In this document: positions 52,670-56,195 of the stretch, piece by piece
Layout: each line of letters opens with the position of its first letter
Numbering within the stretch: the stretch's first letter is position 1
NCBI RefSeq assembly: GCF_030412785.1
Contig: NZ_CP125296.1
Location: forward strand, 1-64,000
Source: Paraburkholderia sabiae
GTDB taxonomy: Bacteria; Pseudomonadota; Gammaproteobacteria; Burkholderiales; Burkholderiaceae
DNA length: 64,000 bases
Reading direction: 5' to 3'
Translations under genes and position numbers: made by a program
Notes under the pieces: model-generated
What the model was told of the DNA's origin: nothing
Databases searched by the model: none
What the model saw: the letters and a program-made list of their open reading frames with translations, nothing else

Positions 52670-53074
52670 TCAGCGATGCGGCGCGAGCAGGATGCTCGAG
52701 ATCACGCCCGTTGCGATCGCGGCGAGGACGAAGTCGCCGTTGACCTGAACCCACTGATAACCCGAAGGCGGCGGCTGCAGATCATGCGCGCGCCAGTCAT
52801 CGACGACATATTGCGAACGGCGATAGTCGGGCGGCAAGCGGTCGCCGCGATGCCAGTCGCGATGCGGCACGGGGCGATGCGCGTCGGGGCCTTGCGGACC
52901 TTGAGGACCTTGAGGCCCTTGCGGACCGCCGGGGCCATCAGGGCCGCCACGCTCGTCGGCGACGGGATGACGGCCCGGGCCGCCATCATCGCCCGGGGCG
53001 TATTGCGCGAACGCCTGGCTCTGCGCGACGACACACGAAACAGCCAACAGCAATACAGGTACAGCTTTTTTCAT
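52670..53074 (-). CDS. RcnB-family periplasmic protein with Gly-Pro-Gln repeats
   Basis: A 134-residue exported protein. The signal peptide ends near A-F-A24. Residues about 40-65 are a collagen-like stretch of G-P-Q triplets. The rest is the RcnB domain, with 'LPPDYRRSQYVVDDWRAH' and 'GYQWVQVNGDFVLAAIATGV' as its hallmarks; the family includes the periplasmic nickel/cobalt homeostasis protein RcnB and CigR, but no metal gene is near, so the role is open. GGGGAG lies eight bases upstream of the start. It is convergent with the two-component operon. Confidence 0.85.
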   Translation of the reverse strand: MKKAVPVLLLAVSCVVAQSQAFAQYAPGDDGGPGRHPVADERGGPDGPGGPQGPQGPQGPQGPDAHRPVPHRDWHRGDRLPPDYRRSQYVVDDWRAHDLQPPPSGYQWVQVNGDFVLAAIATGVISSILLAPHR

Positions 53075-53175
53075 AGAACACTCCCCAAATAAGGTCAGAG
53101 TGTTTTCGGGCGCAACGATTCAAATGGGGTTCTTACTGGGCCTTACTGTGGTTGGGGAACCGAGGCGCGGCACTC

Positions 53176-53838
53176 TCAATCGAGTGTCCGTGTGCGCGGG
53201 TCGCTCATCCTGATCTCCAGCATCCAGTCGGCCCACTGCTCGTCGGCGATGTAGCCGATCGTTTCTTCGCGCGCCTTGCTCAGGAACGCTCGTTGTTGTT
53301 CCAGGGTCCGGCCACGCCAGAAACGTCGCCAGATGTAAATGTCCCAATACTCTTCTGCGCCCTGAGTCAGATGCATGAACGGCCCATGCTCGTACATCGC
53401 AATCCACGGCGGGGCTGGATTGAAATCGGAAGTTTCGATTCGGCGGATAAGCTGGGCATCATTCGATAGCATGCGCACTGCCACGCCACGGAAACGCGAT
53501 TCGGTTGCCAGCAGCGTCGAGACGTTGCGATTTTCTATGCGTCGAAAACACAGCCAATCGGTTTGTTCACTCCCTTCGCGAACAAGATTCAGAAAGCGCG
53601 GGAACTGGTGCGACTCGATGTCGAACACGAGGCTCCACACGTTGATACCCAATCCGCCTTGATACGAGGCGCCCGGATAGTCGCCAAACGATTCCGACTC
53701 GAGCTGTGACGGGCCACCTTCGAAAAGTGCCCGCAACTGTTCGAACGTGCGTCCAAACGTATTTTCAAGCGAGGTGATCGTTTCTTTTTCCGCCCGCTTG
53801 CGTTGCTTCTGTTCCTGATTCTCTTTCCCGAAGAACAC
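53176..53838 (-). CDS. Putative immunity protein of the PAAR module
   Basis: A 220-residue soluble protein with no signal peptide. A GTG at 53838 with AGGAGG eight bases upstream is chosen; it lies only eight bases below the stop of the glycine-zipper gene. The N-terminus is a short highly charged helix (about 6-20, K/E/Q/R-rich), followed by a mixed fold rich in Trp, with 'YWDIYIWRRFWRG' near 165. I recognise no family. Third position after a PAAR gene and a putative toxin is where type VI immunity genes usually lie, so immunity is inference from order. G+C is low for the region: two sampled 60-base lines (53401, 53521) count 33 and 31. Confidence 0.7.
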   Translation of the reverse strand: MFFGKENQEQKQRKRAEKETITSLENTFGRTFEQLRALFEGGPSQLESESFGDYPGASYQGGLGINVWSLVFDIESHQFPRFLNLVREGSEQTDWLCFRRIENRNVSTLLATESRFRGVAVRMLSNDAQLIRRIETSDFNPAPPWIAMYEHGPFMHLTQGAEEYWDIYIWRRFWRGRTLEQQRAFLSKAREETIGYIADEQWADWMLEIRMSDPRTRTLD

Positions 53839-53846
53839 CTGTCCTC

Positions 53847-54776
53847 CTACCTGTCTTGAACATGTCCGGCAATCTCTGCGCCAGCAAAATAGCCGATTGC
53901 GCCGAACAGGATGCCGCCGATCATACCGGTGATAACGGCGCCCGGCCCCAGTTCGATGCCGACGACCGAGCCCGTTGCTGCACCGATGCGTGCGGCCGCA
54001 ACCGCACCCGCCCAACTCCCCGCTGCGCCGCCGCCCCATCCGCCGATCTGCCGGATAGCCTCCTTTTCGATCGGCCGTATGCTCCTCAGCGTGATCCCCT
54101 CGTCAACGGACACGGCGACATCGTAAGCCGTAAGCGCCAGGCCAAACACCTGGACGACACGGGCGTATTTGATCAGACCAAGCGATATGCCAAGCCCTCG
54201 TTGCGAAAATATGCCGGTGGCAGGCACCGACGGTTTTGGTTGTACAAGTACCTCGCTATCGAGCGCTTCGACCTTACGCTTGATATGCCCCGCCCAACGC
54301 CGTCTCTCCGAATTGATGCCAGACTCTGCGTATTGGTCGATGGCCTGAACGATCTCCGCCGTCGTTACCAGCCTGGCGCCGGACCGCTTCGCTGCGGCGA
54401 TATCTACGTAGACGGTCTTTCCCGTGAAGCGTCCGGCGCCGCCCGGATAGTTGGCGCTGGTCGAAGCGTATGAAGTGATCTGTTCGAACTGAAGGACATG
54501 CTCCGCGATAGTCGCCGGCGAGTCTGCAGCACCTCGTGGCCATAGCCCGTATCGCTCCGGAAATGCCTGCCTTGCGTTCCCAAGCGGACCAAGGTTCAGA
54601 TCCACAAGATACGGGTCATTCACGGTCGCGTAAGTGCGCCTGACAAGAAATCCGTCCCTGCCCGGCTCCTCCACAACGACAAAAAAGAACATCCGCGCAG
54701 GCATCAGCGGTCCAACGACGTCCTTCAGGGAGTCTTTTCGCTGGTTCGTCGACGCCCGATATGTGTATGTGCTCAT
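53847..54776 (-). CDS. Putative type VI effector with C-terminal glycine-zipper region
   Basis: A 309-residue protein in two parts. Residues 1-190 are soluble, with 'GPLGNARQAFPERYGLWPRG' near 63-82, a Ser-Thr-Ser at 105-107 and 'FTGKTVYVDIAAAKRSGARL' at 117-136. Residues 199-225 are hydrophobic, and 245-304 are an almost unbroken Gly/Ala/Ile zipper that could insert in a membrane, like pore-forming glycine-zipper toxins such as Tse4. No signal peptide is present, as expected for a T6SS cargo. The start overlaps the PAAR stop as ATGA. No catalytic family is recognised, so effector function is inferred. Confidence 0.7.
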   Translation of the reverse strand: MSTYTYRASTNQRKDSLKDVVGPLMPARMFFFVVVEEPGRDGFLVRRTYATVNDPYLVDLNLGPLGNARQAFPERYGLWPRGAADSPATIAEHVLQFEQITSYASTSANYPGGAGRFTGKTVYVDIAAAKRSGARLVTTAEIVQAIDQYAESGINSERRRWAGHIKRKVEALDSEVLVQPKPSVPATGIFSQRGLGISLGLIKYARVVQVFGLALTAYDVAVSVDEGITLRSIRPIEKEAIRQIGGWGGGAAGSWAGAVAAARIGAATGSVVGIELGPGAVITGMIGGILFGAIGYFAGAEIAGHVQDR

Positions 54777-55324
54777 GATTTCCAGCGCTGCAATGCCTTG
54801 ACTCCCAGCGCAACGTCCAATTGTTGCGCCTCTGTCGTGTACACACGCGAGCAACGTCCGTGCTCGTCTGTCAGGCCCTTGTAGATCGCGCCCGACGCTG
54901 TACGAATGTGGTACGGAACACCGGACAACGGCCTCCCGTCGTGATCGACCACTCGAATCTGTTCGTCGAAGTCGCCTGTCGGGGCGCGCGCCAGTGGCTT
55001 ACCGCTCGCGCCAAAACCCATGGCCTCCAGTTCACCCGTTTCAAAGGACTCGCTCATGGTGTTCTGAGACGCGAGAAGTTCCGGTGAAGGATGGCAGTTG
55101 CACACGCAGATATCGCCGTCCAGTGCGGCATCCTTACCCATAAATGAAAACGGACGTCTGGGACCAGTCGCGACGATCACACCAACCGACCCACACGCGG
55201 AGCACATGACCTTCGCGCCCAGATAACTTAGCGGCGTTCCGTGATGCGTCGTCGTTCTGTCTCCCTCGATTACTACCCCTCCATTCGTTGTCTTGTCACC
55301 CAGCTTGATGTTGTACCGTCGCAT
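54773..55324 (-). CDS. PAAR-domain spike protein with C-terminal transthyretin-like domain
   Basis: A 183-residue protein. Residues about 1-90 are a PAAR repeat fold: 'LGDKTTNGGVVIEGDRTT' at the start, Cys/His ligands in 'GAKVMCSACGSVG' and 'GDICVCNCHPSPELLA', which would bind the Zn that sharpens the tip of a type VI spike. After a linker, residues about 118-183 ('EQIRVVDHDGRPLSGVPYHI', then a G-x-T-D-x-x-G turn) resemble the transthyretin-like extensions used on VgrG and PAAR proteins to carry cargo. GGGAGG stands ten bases before the ATG. It is the first gene of the three-gene module; no tss structural genes are in the window. Confidence 0.83.
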   Translation of the reverse strand: MRRYNIKLGDKTTNGGVVIEGDRTTTHHGTPLSYLGAKVMCSACGSVGVIVATGPRRPFSFMGKDAALDGDICVCNCHPSPELLASQNTMSESFETGELEAMGFGASGKPLARAPTGDFDEQIRVVDHDGRPLSGVPYHIRTASGAIYKGLTDEHGRCSRVYTTEAQQLDVALGVKALQRWKS

Positions 55325-55670
55325 ATCAACCTCCCTGCTTGATGCGTCCGTCGTCCGATCCAGTCCCTATCACGCAATTCTTTCGATCTATTTACTTTGG
55401 TATCCGAACTTTATATCTGACGAATCTTCCTCACGGATTCAAACACACCTCGCGGAGCGCCGATCTCAGAAATGTTTGAAGGCGACGTCAGCCAGATAAG
55501 ATCGTGCTTCGCTCATTTGCGGTGGCGTGTGCCAGCAAGGCCATATCTCTTTCCGGTCAACGCGATCTCCCCGAGGGAACCGGCCAACACCCCTCCTCAT
55601 TCTTCTCTAATTCCCCACCGCTACGATGCACCTCATTCGCTGATCCACATTCCGTCTGAAGGAGGTCATC
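55325..55670. other. Intergenic region between the PAAR module and the DUF6622-like gene
   Basis: 346 bases without a gene. The stretch 55381-55440 has only 22 G+C in 60, the lowest seen in this window, and probably holds the minus-strand promoter of the PAAR operon, though no convincing -35/-10 pair was found. The right end holds an ideal ribosome site, AAGGAGGT, for the next gene. Confidence 0.6.
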
Positions 55671-56195
55671 ATGCCGCTCGCAGCCATCATTCAAGGCACG
55701 CCAATCTGGGTTTGGGTGCTGCTCGTCTACCTGCTCTCGCGCGGGTTCAAGGCCATGAACAGCGGCACCGCGCCGCTTTCGAAACTCGCCATCGTGCCGC
55801 TCATCTTCACGGCGTGGGGCATCCTGCATCTGATCACCGATCCGCTGGCCGGCTGGTCGTCCGTCATCGTCTGGGTGGTCGGCGCGCTGATCGGCATCGC
55901 GGGTGGCGTCTTCATCGCGAGCCGGACGCGCTTCATCGTCGATCCCGCTGCGAACACGGTCATGCTGCCAGGCTCCATGGTGCCGCTCGTGCTGATCGTC
56001 ATCACGTTCGCGGCCAAGTTCTGGCTCGGCGTCGAACTGGCGACCGCGACGAGTCTCGCGGCGCTCGGCGGATACGTGTTGCTGAGCGCGGCAGTGTCGG
56101 GCGTGGTCGCGGGTGTGTTCGGCGGGCGCTTCCTCACGTACTGGAGAGCGATGAGCGCACGCCGAGTCCTCCGGGCATGTTCGCAAGGCGTGTAA
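55671..56195 (+). CDS. Small membrane protein, DUF6622-like
   Basis: A 174-residue inner-membrane protein with five hydrophobic segments: about 10-24, 38-58, 64-83, 100-117 and 128-150. 'WVWVLLVYLLSRGFKAM' near the N-terminus and a strongly basic C-terminal tail ending the last helix are typical of the DUF6622 family as I recall it. Function unknown. The ribosome site AAGGAGGTCATC is one of the best in the window, which suggests strong expression. It runs away from the PAAR module and stands alone. Confidence 0.75.
   Translation: MPLAAIIQGTPIWVWVLLVYLLSRGFKAMNSGTAPLSKLAIVPLIFTAWGILHLITDPLAGWSSVIVWVVGALIGIAGGVFIASRTRFIVDPAANTVMLPGSMVPLVLIVITFAAKFWLGVELATATSLAALGGYVLLSAAVSGVVAGVFGGRFLTYWRAMSARRVLRACSQGV

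Follow-up and report, generated by a model that had tools for sequence, protein, structure and literature searches.

What does an operon that places a glycine-rich protein between a secretion spike and a soluble protein do for Paraburkholderia sabiae? The operon lies at positions 53,176 to 55,324 of a 64,000-nucleotide stretch of this genome (the window; assembly GCF_030412785.1, contig NZ_CP125296.1, positions 1 to 64,000), and the first-pass annotation read it as a horizontally acquired type VI secretion system (T6SS) effector-immunity module, the second product of which might combine an enzyme with a means of membrane entry. This interpretation is supported computationally, though the strength of that support is unequal between its parts. 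The operon probably encodes a T6SS cargo effector and its antidote, in which the tail of the PAAR protein would carry a predicted ADP-ribosyltransferase (ART) of 309 residues, the colicin-like C-terminus of this enzyme would give entry and a 220-residue protein would neutralise it.

Gene order, recurrence and insertion site

The order, coordinates and coupling of the three genes are as first annotated. The PAAR stop codon and the ATG of the 309-residue gene share four bases (an ATGA overlap), and an 8-base gap separates the stop of that gene from the GTG start of the 220-residue gene, which is preceded by AGGAGG. The first product, taken for a PAAR spike, matches PF05488 (Table 1). The predicted effector gene stands directly behind a spike gene and before the likely immunity gene, the layout of a T6SS cargo effector-immunity pair. 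A search for tss genes elsewhere in the genome (9.9 Mb, 4 contigs), which had been proposed as a check, found two T6SS loci, recognised by genes for TssK and TssC, of which two each exceed the Pfam cut-offs; these genes form two pairs, with members ~3-4 kb apart, and share their contig with the window.

The three-gene grouping exceeds what chance would produce, because homologues recur together in many genera. A first scan of genome contigs with a single-protein query gave no match; an alignment-based scan recovered at least 43 loci, spanning Burkholderia, Cupriavidus, Caballeronia, Pseudomonas, Enterobacterales, Vibrionaceae, Oxalobacteraceae, myxobacteria, Bacteroidota and others. Among the matches listed, 26 of 43 loci have, immediately upstream of the effector, a spike protein ending in the same transthyretin-like domain as the PAAR protein, as found with a profile model built from part of these loci; of the 20 loci outside that model, three have the tail (L018, L020 and L030) and 17 do not. 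In 42 of the 43 the effector is followed by a whole or partial immunity-family gene, again by a model made from some of these loci, and nine of the 10 loci outside it match; in a few loci (e.g., L040 and L057) the match covers only part of a gene. Effector and immunity genes recur behind both PAAR and VgrG proteins with the same terminal domain: among 23 upstream proteins selected for ending in the transthyretin-like tail, the one in the window included, 16 match the PAAR motif and seven the VgrG OB domain. This recurrence and the presence of tss genes support the type VI effector-immunity assignment.

All 26 tail-bearing loci have a near-full effector match without an extra N-terminal domain, and in a few of them (such as L020, L030 and L035) the effector or spike frame is broken. 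The remaining 17 listed loci comprise eight effectors with an extra N-terminal part and nine partial copies. The extra part contains LysM over the Pfam cut-off in L040, L042, L044 and L052, and gives a weaker or other match in L039, L043, L050 and L053. Ten neighbouring genes were scanned around extended forms (L039, L040, L043, L050 and L053), identifying a VgrG and a T6SS FHA protein at L040 and a VgrG at L043, with no T6SS domain in the four neighbours scanned from L039, L050 and L053. The homologue at L043, from Chryseobacterium, differs in its N-terminal region, has the VgrG gene upstream and extends the family to the Bacteroidota. The Litoreibacter homologue at L050 has a weak peptidoglycan-binding match, and of its two scanned neighbours one encodes a DctM transporter and the other has RTX repeats, neither being a spike gene; this effector is possibly delivered by another route. 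Two transthyretin-like domains stand in tandem upstream of the effector at L018 (4211-5001) and L019 (600-1393), which suggests that spike genes were duplicated or exchanged. The P. sabiae genome encodes another PAAR-like protein (G000:C1:5290573-5290851), 42% identical to residues 1-92 of the PAAR protein; the match stops short of the transthyretin-like tail.

The lower G+C that had been cited for horizontal acquisition holds, at ~53-60% in the module compared with ~60-70% on both sides (500-base windows), and the insert, delimited by alignment to a relative, has 57.9%, below the 63.5% of the window as a whole. Acquisition gains further support from a comparison of flanks across 58 genomes of the genus, the P. 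sabiae genome included. The site is occupied here and empty in G310, the relative whose flanks are most similar (88% and 91% identity at the two flanking genes); there these genes lie 164 bases apart compared with 2,596 here, and the bounds of the insert were set by blastn alignment against this relative. The intergenic site, with a small gene (52670-53074) on one side and on the other a membrane-protein-like gene (55671-56195), is variable (53147-55589; L131-L134), being empty in one relative and filled with unrelated metabolic genes in three. The latter (G299, G322 and G323) hold ~4.6 kb of other genes, which we read from their translations as encoding amidohydrolase-like, pyridoxal phosphate-enzyme-like and solute-binding proteins, and in G329 the flanking genes are ~38 kb apart. 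Of 299 genomes of the family, seven, that of P. sabiae among them, carry a near-full copy of the effector, and five others give weaker or partial matches (L010-L014); the closest named homologue, from Paraburkholderia azotifigens, is 83% identical. Searches gave no match in phage records and one in plasmid records, from Vibrio coralliilyticus. A DNA-level search of E. coli genomes gave no match, though the protein search lists an E. coli-labelled protein.

The predicted transferase and its glycine-rich C-terminus

The second and third products had been described as belonging to no known family. Relatives do exist, with 84 entries in the protein search for the 309-residue protein (one being its own cluster; 7,995 scored candidates) and seven for the 220-residue protein (one again its own cluster). 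Searches of Pfam, NCBIfam and PADLOC, however, were uninformative for both proteins. Neither family has a Pfam or NCBIfam model, and members are therefore annotated as hypothetical or, as for some relatives of the 309-residue protein at NCBI, under the generic label 'glycine zipper family protein'.

The S105-T106-S107 motif, in which a faint likeness to ARTs had been seen, is present as claimed, and the N-terminal part of the protein is predicted to have an ART fold, in which a split beta-sheet forms the NAD+ cleft. The AF2 model reaches pLDDT values of 85-95 per ten residues over 41-190, rows 1-25 of its VIA structure comparison are all ART-fold, and the best PDB match of the ART profile, a weak one, is the ART toxin RhsF (chain 9zdm_B). 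The arginine, histidine, S-x-S and [DE]-x-E set is invariant across the 29 members of alignment A3 (Table 1); S105 aligns with a pocket residue of RhsF (S1445 by spacing) and E175 with another of its residues (E1497 by spacing). The predicted fold, combined with Arg, Ser-x-Ser and [E/Q/D]-x-Glu, would place the protein in the R-S-E class of ARTs. DUF7587 matches two of the 29 members, the alignment seen (L040) lies under its cut-off, and the model was set aside.

It is rather improbable that the domain is instead an ART-fold NAD(P)+ glycohydrolase that kills by draining NAD and not by modifying a target. Tne5 has such an activity on an ART fold (PMC13285283; this and the other published systems are described from the accessible parts of the cited papers), but depends on a Lys and not on the Glu, whereas R, S-x-S and [DE]-x-E are invariant here and the best PDB profile match, RhsF, is a transferase.

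The proposed design of an enzyme with membrane entry draws on a Gly/Ala/Ile stretch that is real, with 19 glycines within residues 245-304, and on a C-terminal part whose profile moderately resembles that of pore-forming colicins. The first three PDB matches of the whole-family profile are Colicin B (E 0.0048), Colicin Ib (0.014) and Pyocin S5 (0.23). Aligned with seven colicins in hhalign, the whole profile gives a probability of 91-92% and a score of 52.6-53.1; none of 200 local-window column shuffles exceeded 34.2, the reversed profile reached 22.7 and the ART part alone 17.4. Judged from these profiles, the C-terminus is likely a distant relative of the hydrophobic end of the colicin channel domain, short of membership.

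Several results qualify this assignment of fold and ancestry. Foldseek returned no significant match for the 309-residue model. The whole-profile colicin alignment begins at residue 132, within the ART part, and the C-terminal part alone reaches a probability of 46% against the seven colicins, a score that 1 of 100 shuffles also reaches. Searched against the PDB, the C-terminal part finds Colicin B first, but HipB and PsaL fall near Colicin Ib. PF01024 has no match at the gene (own-genome search, E<=10) and none in 29 members (E<=1). Colicins are missing from the VIA list of the 309-residue model, the C-terminus of which is poorly modelled; this absence excludes nothing. Matches of the C-terminal part to HipB, TraT, PsaL and further short or glycine-rich sequences were put down to composition; those to PsaL reach E 1e-5 in Pfam and occur in 11 of the 29 members (E<=1).

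A glycine-rich, colicin-like C-terminus would also suit an effector that is mainly a membrane-depolarising pore-former, in which the ART-like domain is a degenerate scaffold or loading module, and EsxX, a glycine-zipper toxin of the type VII secretion system, is described as depolarising membranes. We consider such a pore-former unlikely. The alignment covers only the ~last 100 residues of the colicin channel domain, and a dead scaffold would not be expected to keep the predicted catalytic residues without exception in 29 of 29 diverse members. Additionally, the likely antidote of 220 residues shows no membrane span, whereas the Sip4 antidote to Ssp4, a pore-former, is depicted with a membrane topology (PMC12669606).

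Table 1. Coordinates of the insert, its three genes and the domains and residues discussed in the text.
Feature	Position	Strand	Basis or detail
Inserted segment, absent in G310 (relative with most similar flanks)	53147..55589	.	Flanks 88% identical, 11 bases between them in G310
PAAR spike gene, 183 aa	54773..55324	minus	PF05488 PAAR_motif E 1.4e-12, residues 8-77
Transthyretin/Ig-like C-terminal domain of PAAR protein (residues 119-181), likely cargo adaptor	54782..54970	minus	Sub-threshold Pfam MG4, E 4.8e-4
Predicted effector, 309 aa: ART domain and colicin-like glycine-rich C-terminal domain	53847..54776	minus	
Predicted ART domain (residues 24-190)	54207..54707	minus	AF2, VIA, weak PDB profile match
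R46 codon, predicted NAD+-binding arginine	54639..54641	minus	29/29 in alignment A3, 64/65 in A2
H93 codon, invariant histidine	54498..54500	minus	29/29 in A3, 65/65 in A2
S105-T106-S107 motif	54456..54464	minus	S105 and S107 29/29 in A3, 65/65 in A2
D173-x-E175 motif, predicted catalytic glutamate	54252..54260	minus	E175 and D/E at 173: 29/29 in A3, 65/65 in A2
Predicted membrane-entry domain (residues 183-309), like C-terminal part of pore-forming colicins	53850..54230	minus	Profile comparison
Glycine-zipper stretch (residues 245-304)	53865..54044	minus	19 glycines; top hydrophobic 19-mer 1.84, residues 280-298
Likely immunity gene, 220 aa, soluble, GTG start	53176..53838	minus	

The likely immunity protein and a proposed mechanism

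The AF2 model of the 220-residue protein (pLDDT 90.8, pTM 0.85) had no significant Foldseek match and no clear PDB match overall. Glycohydrolase folds are missing from its VIA list, which excludes nothing, an ADP-ribosylhydrolase antidote of the Tri1 type (with an ADP-ribosylglycohydrolase or macrodomain fold) included. A tautomerase assignment was rejected as a sub-threshold match (E 0.16). A membrane-span-like segment is absent from this protein and from 34 of 35 relatives, occurring in 1 of the 36 family members. Colicin immunity proteins reside in the membrane; the 220-residue protein does not have the integral-membrane character of the antidotes to pore-forming colicins, and its lack of a membrane span fits a cytoplasmic enzyme better than a pore.

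Across the window and 17 loci, the 220-residue protein is the least conserved element, with a mean identity of 25% compared with 54% for the ART, 59% for the C-terminus and 41% for the transthyretin-like domain. Immunity distances follow effector distances (r 0.68, p 0.0005), a correlation to which shared ancestry contributes. They track the ART and the C-terminus equally (partial r 0.31 and 0.33), and therefore do not indicate which part the immunity protein binds. Open immunity-family genes stand next to truncated effector genes at L046, L047, L054 and L055, possibly as orphan immunity left by effector loss.

T6SS effector chaperones are frequently encoded beside their effectors, and ARTs acting on animal cells are among the structural neighbours of the 309-residue model. 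Both would be in keeping with an anti-eukaryotic module, in which the 220-residue protein is a chaperone or adaptor instead of an immunity protein. This is very unlikely, as the protein is the least conserved element yet tracks the effector, its family is kept in LysM-fused variants without a spike tail upstream, and its gene follows that of the toxin, the usual position of an immunity gene.

Under the effector-immunity reading preferred here, the effector would ride on the transthyretin-like spike tail and be left in the prey periplasm, where the glycine-rich C-terminus would insert into the inner membrane of the rival and expose the N-terminal ART to cytoplasmic NAD+. The ART would then modify an essential target, and the 220-residue protein would protect kin cells by binding the effector. 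RhsF modifies RNA in vitro (PMC13324451), thus RNA is a fair first candidate for this target.

Relation to known systems

None of the three elements is new by itself: ARTs of the T6SS, spike tails of the transthyretin-like type and entry by a glycine zipper are all known. RhsF-CT/RhsFi of Chromobacterium violaceum (PMC13324451; 9zdm_B) and the related RhsP2 and TreTu are likewise T6SS pairs of an ART toxin and its soluble antidote. RhsF aligns weakly with the ART profile here in its EHV, S-T and D-x-E-V-L-I stretches, and VgrG3 of RhsF also bears a transthyretin-like domain (PMC13324451). RhsF-CT is, however, the C-terminus of an Rhs protein and R-Y-E (PMC13324451), whereas the ART here is N-terminal, has no Rhs core, is apparently R-S-E and precedes the predicted membrane-entry domain. 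Another combination of an enzyme with a glycine zipper is Tde1 of Agrobacterium tumefaciens (PMC10240207); its zipper is reported to be needed for prey entry and has been compared to pyocin S5 and colicin Ia. In Tde1 the enzyme is a DNase, the zipper is N-terminal and loading is by the adaptor Tap1, whereas the zipper here is C-terminal, the enzyme is a predicted ART and the operon has no separate adaptor gene.

With pore-forming colicins (B, Ia, Ib, K and S4) and pyocin S5 (PF01024) the family appears to share the ~last 100 residues, including a Pro-containing stretch before the hydrophobic region; it differs in having no N-terminal channel-domain helices, no receptor or import domains and a soluble antidote. 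The VgrG transthyretin-like domain that binds Tle1 (cited in PMC11148199) is likewise a spike tail adjoining a cargo gene, though the cargo there is Tle1, whereas here, within a single ART family, spikes of both the PAAR and the VgrG kind end in one domain type. Ssp4/Sip4 of Serratia marcescens (PMC12669606) is likewise a widespread T6SS effector family with a membrane-active region, but Ssp4 is a pore-former with a membrane antidote and, in the accessible part of the paper, no mention of an ART domain; the antidote here is soluble.

No description of the 309-residue protein was found in the accessible parts of PMC11148199, PMC13377157, PMC12992299, PMC12994826 and PMC10469887. Similarly, no description of a non-Rhs ART with a C-terminal colicin-like entry domain, combined with a PAAR/VgrG tail or fused N-terminal domains, was found among the matches listed, in a search that left subscription papers outside. 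The family is new, as is the arrangement of its known parts, with the proviso that STox_62, a Salmonella T6SS ART named in PMC12994826, could be the same ART family or a different one.

How T6SS enzymes cross the prey inner membrane is an open question, and tested cases are few, the Tde1 glycine zipper included (PMC10240207). A second enzyme class, unrelated to that of Tde1 and bearing its colicin-like segment at the other end, would make a general, swappable entry module directly testable. The use of one spike-adaptor domain on PAAR and VgrG carriers, with fused N-terminal domains in some relatives without the adaptor, aids the prediction of cargo from spike sequence. There is perhaps an even chance that the family is a modular antibacterial toxin with its own door, in which an R-S-E ART and a C-terminal half-colicin entry domain are loaded through an interchangeable PAAR/VgrG transthyretin-like tail or through LysM-like domains fused in cis. 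If true, the toxin would mirror the two-part toxins of animal cells, which join a catalytic domain to a helical hairpin, with the T6SS spike taking the place of receptor binding.
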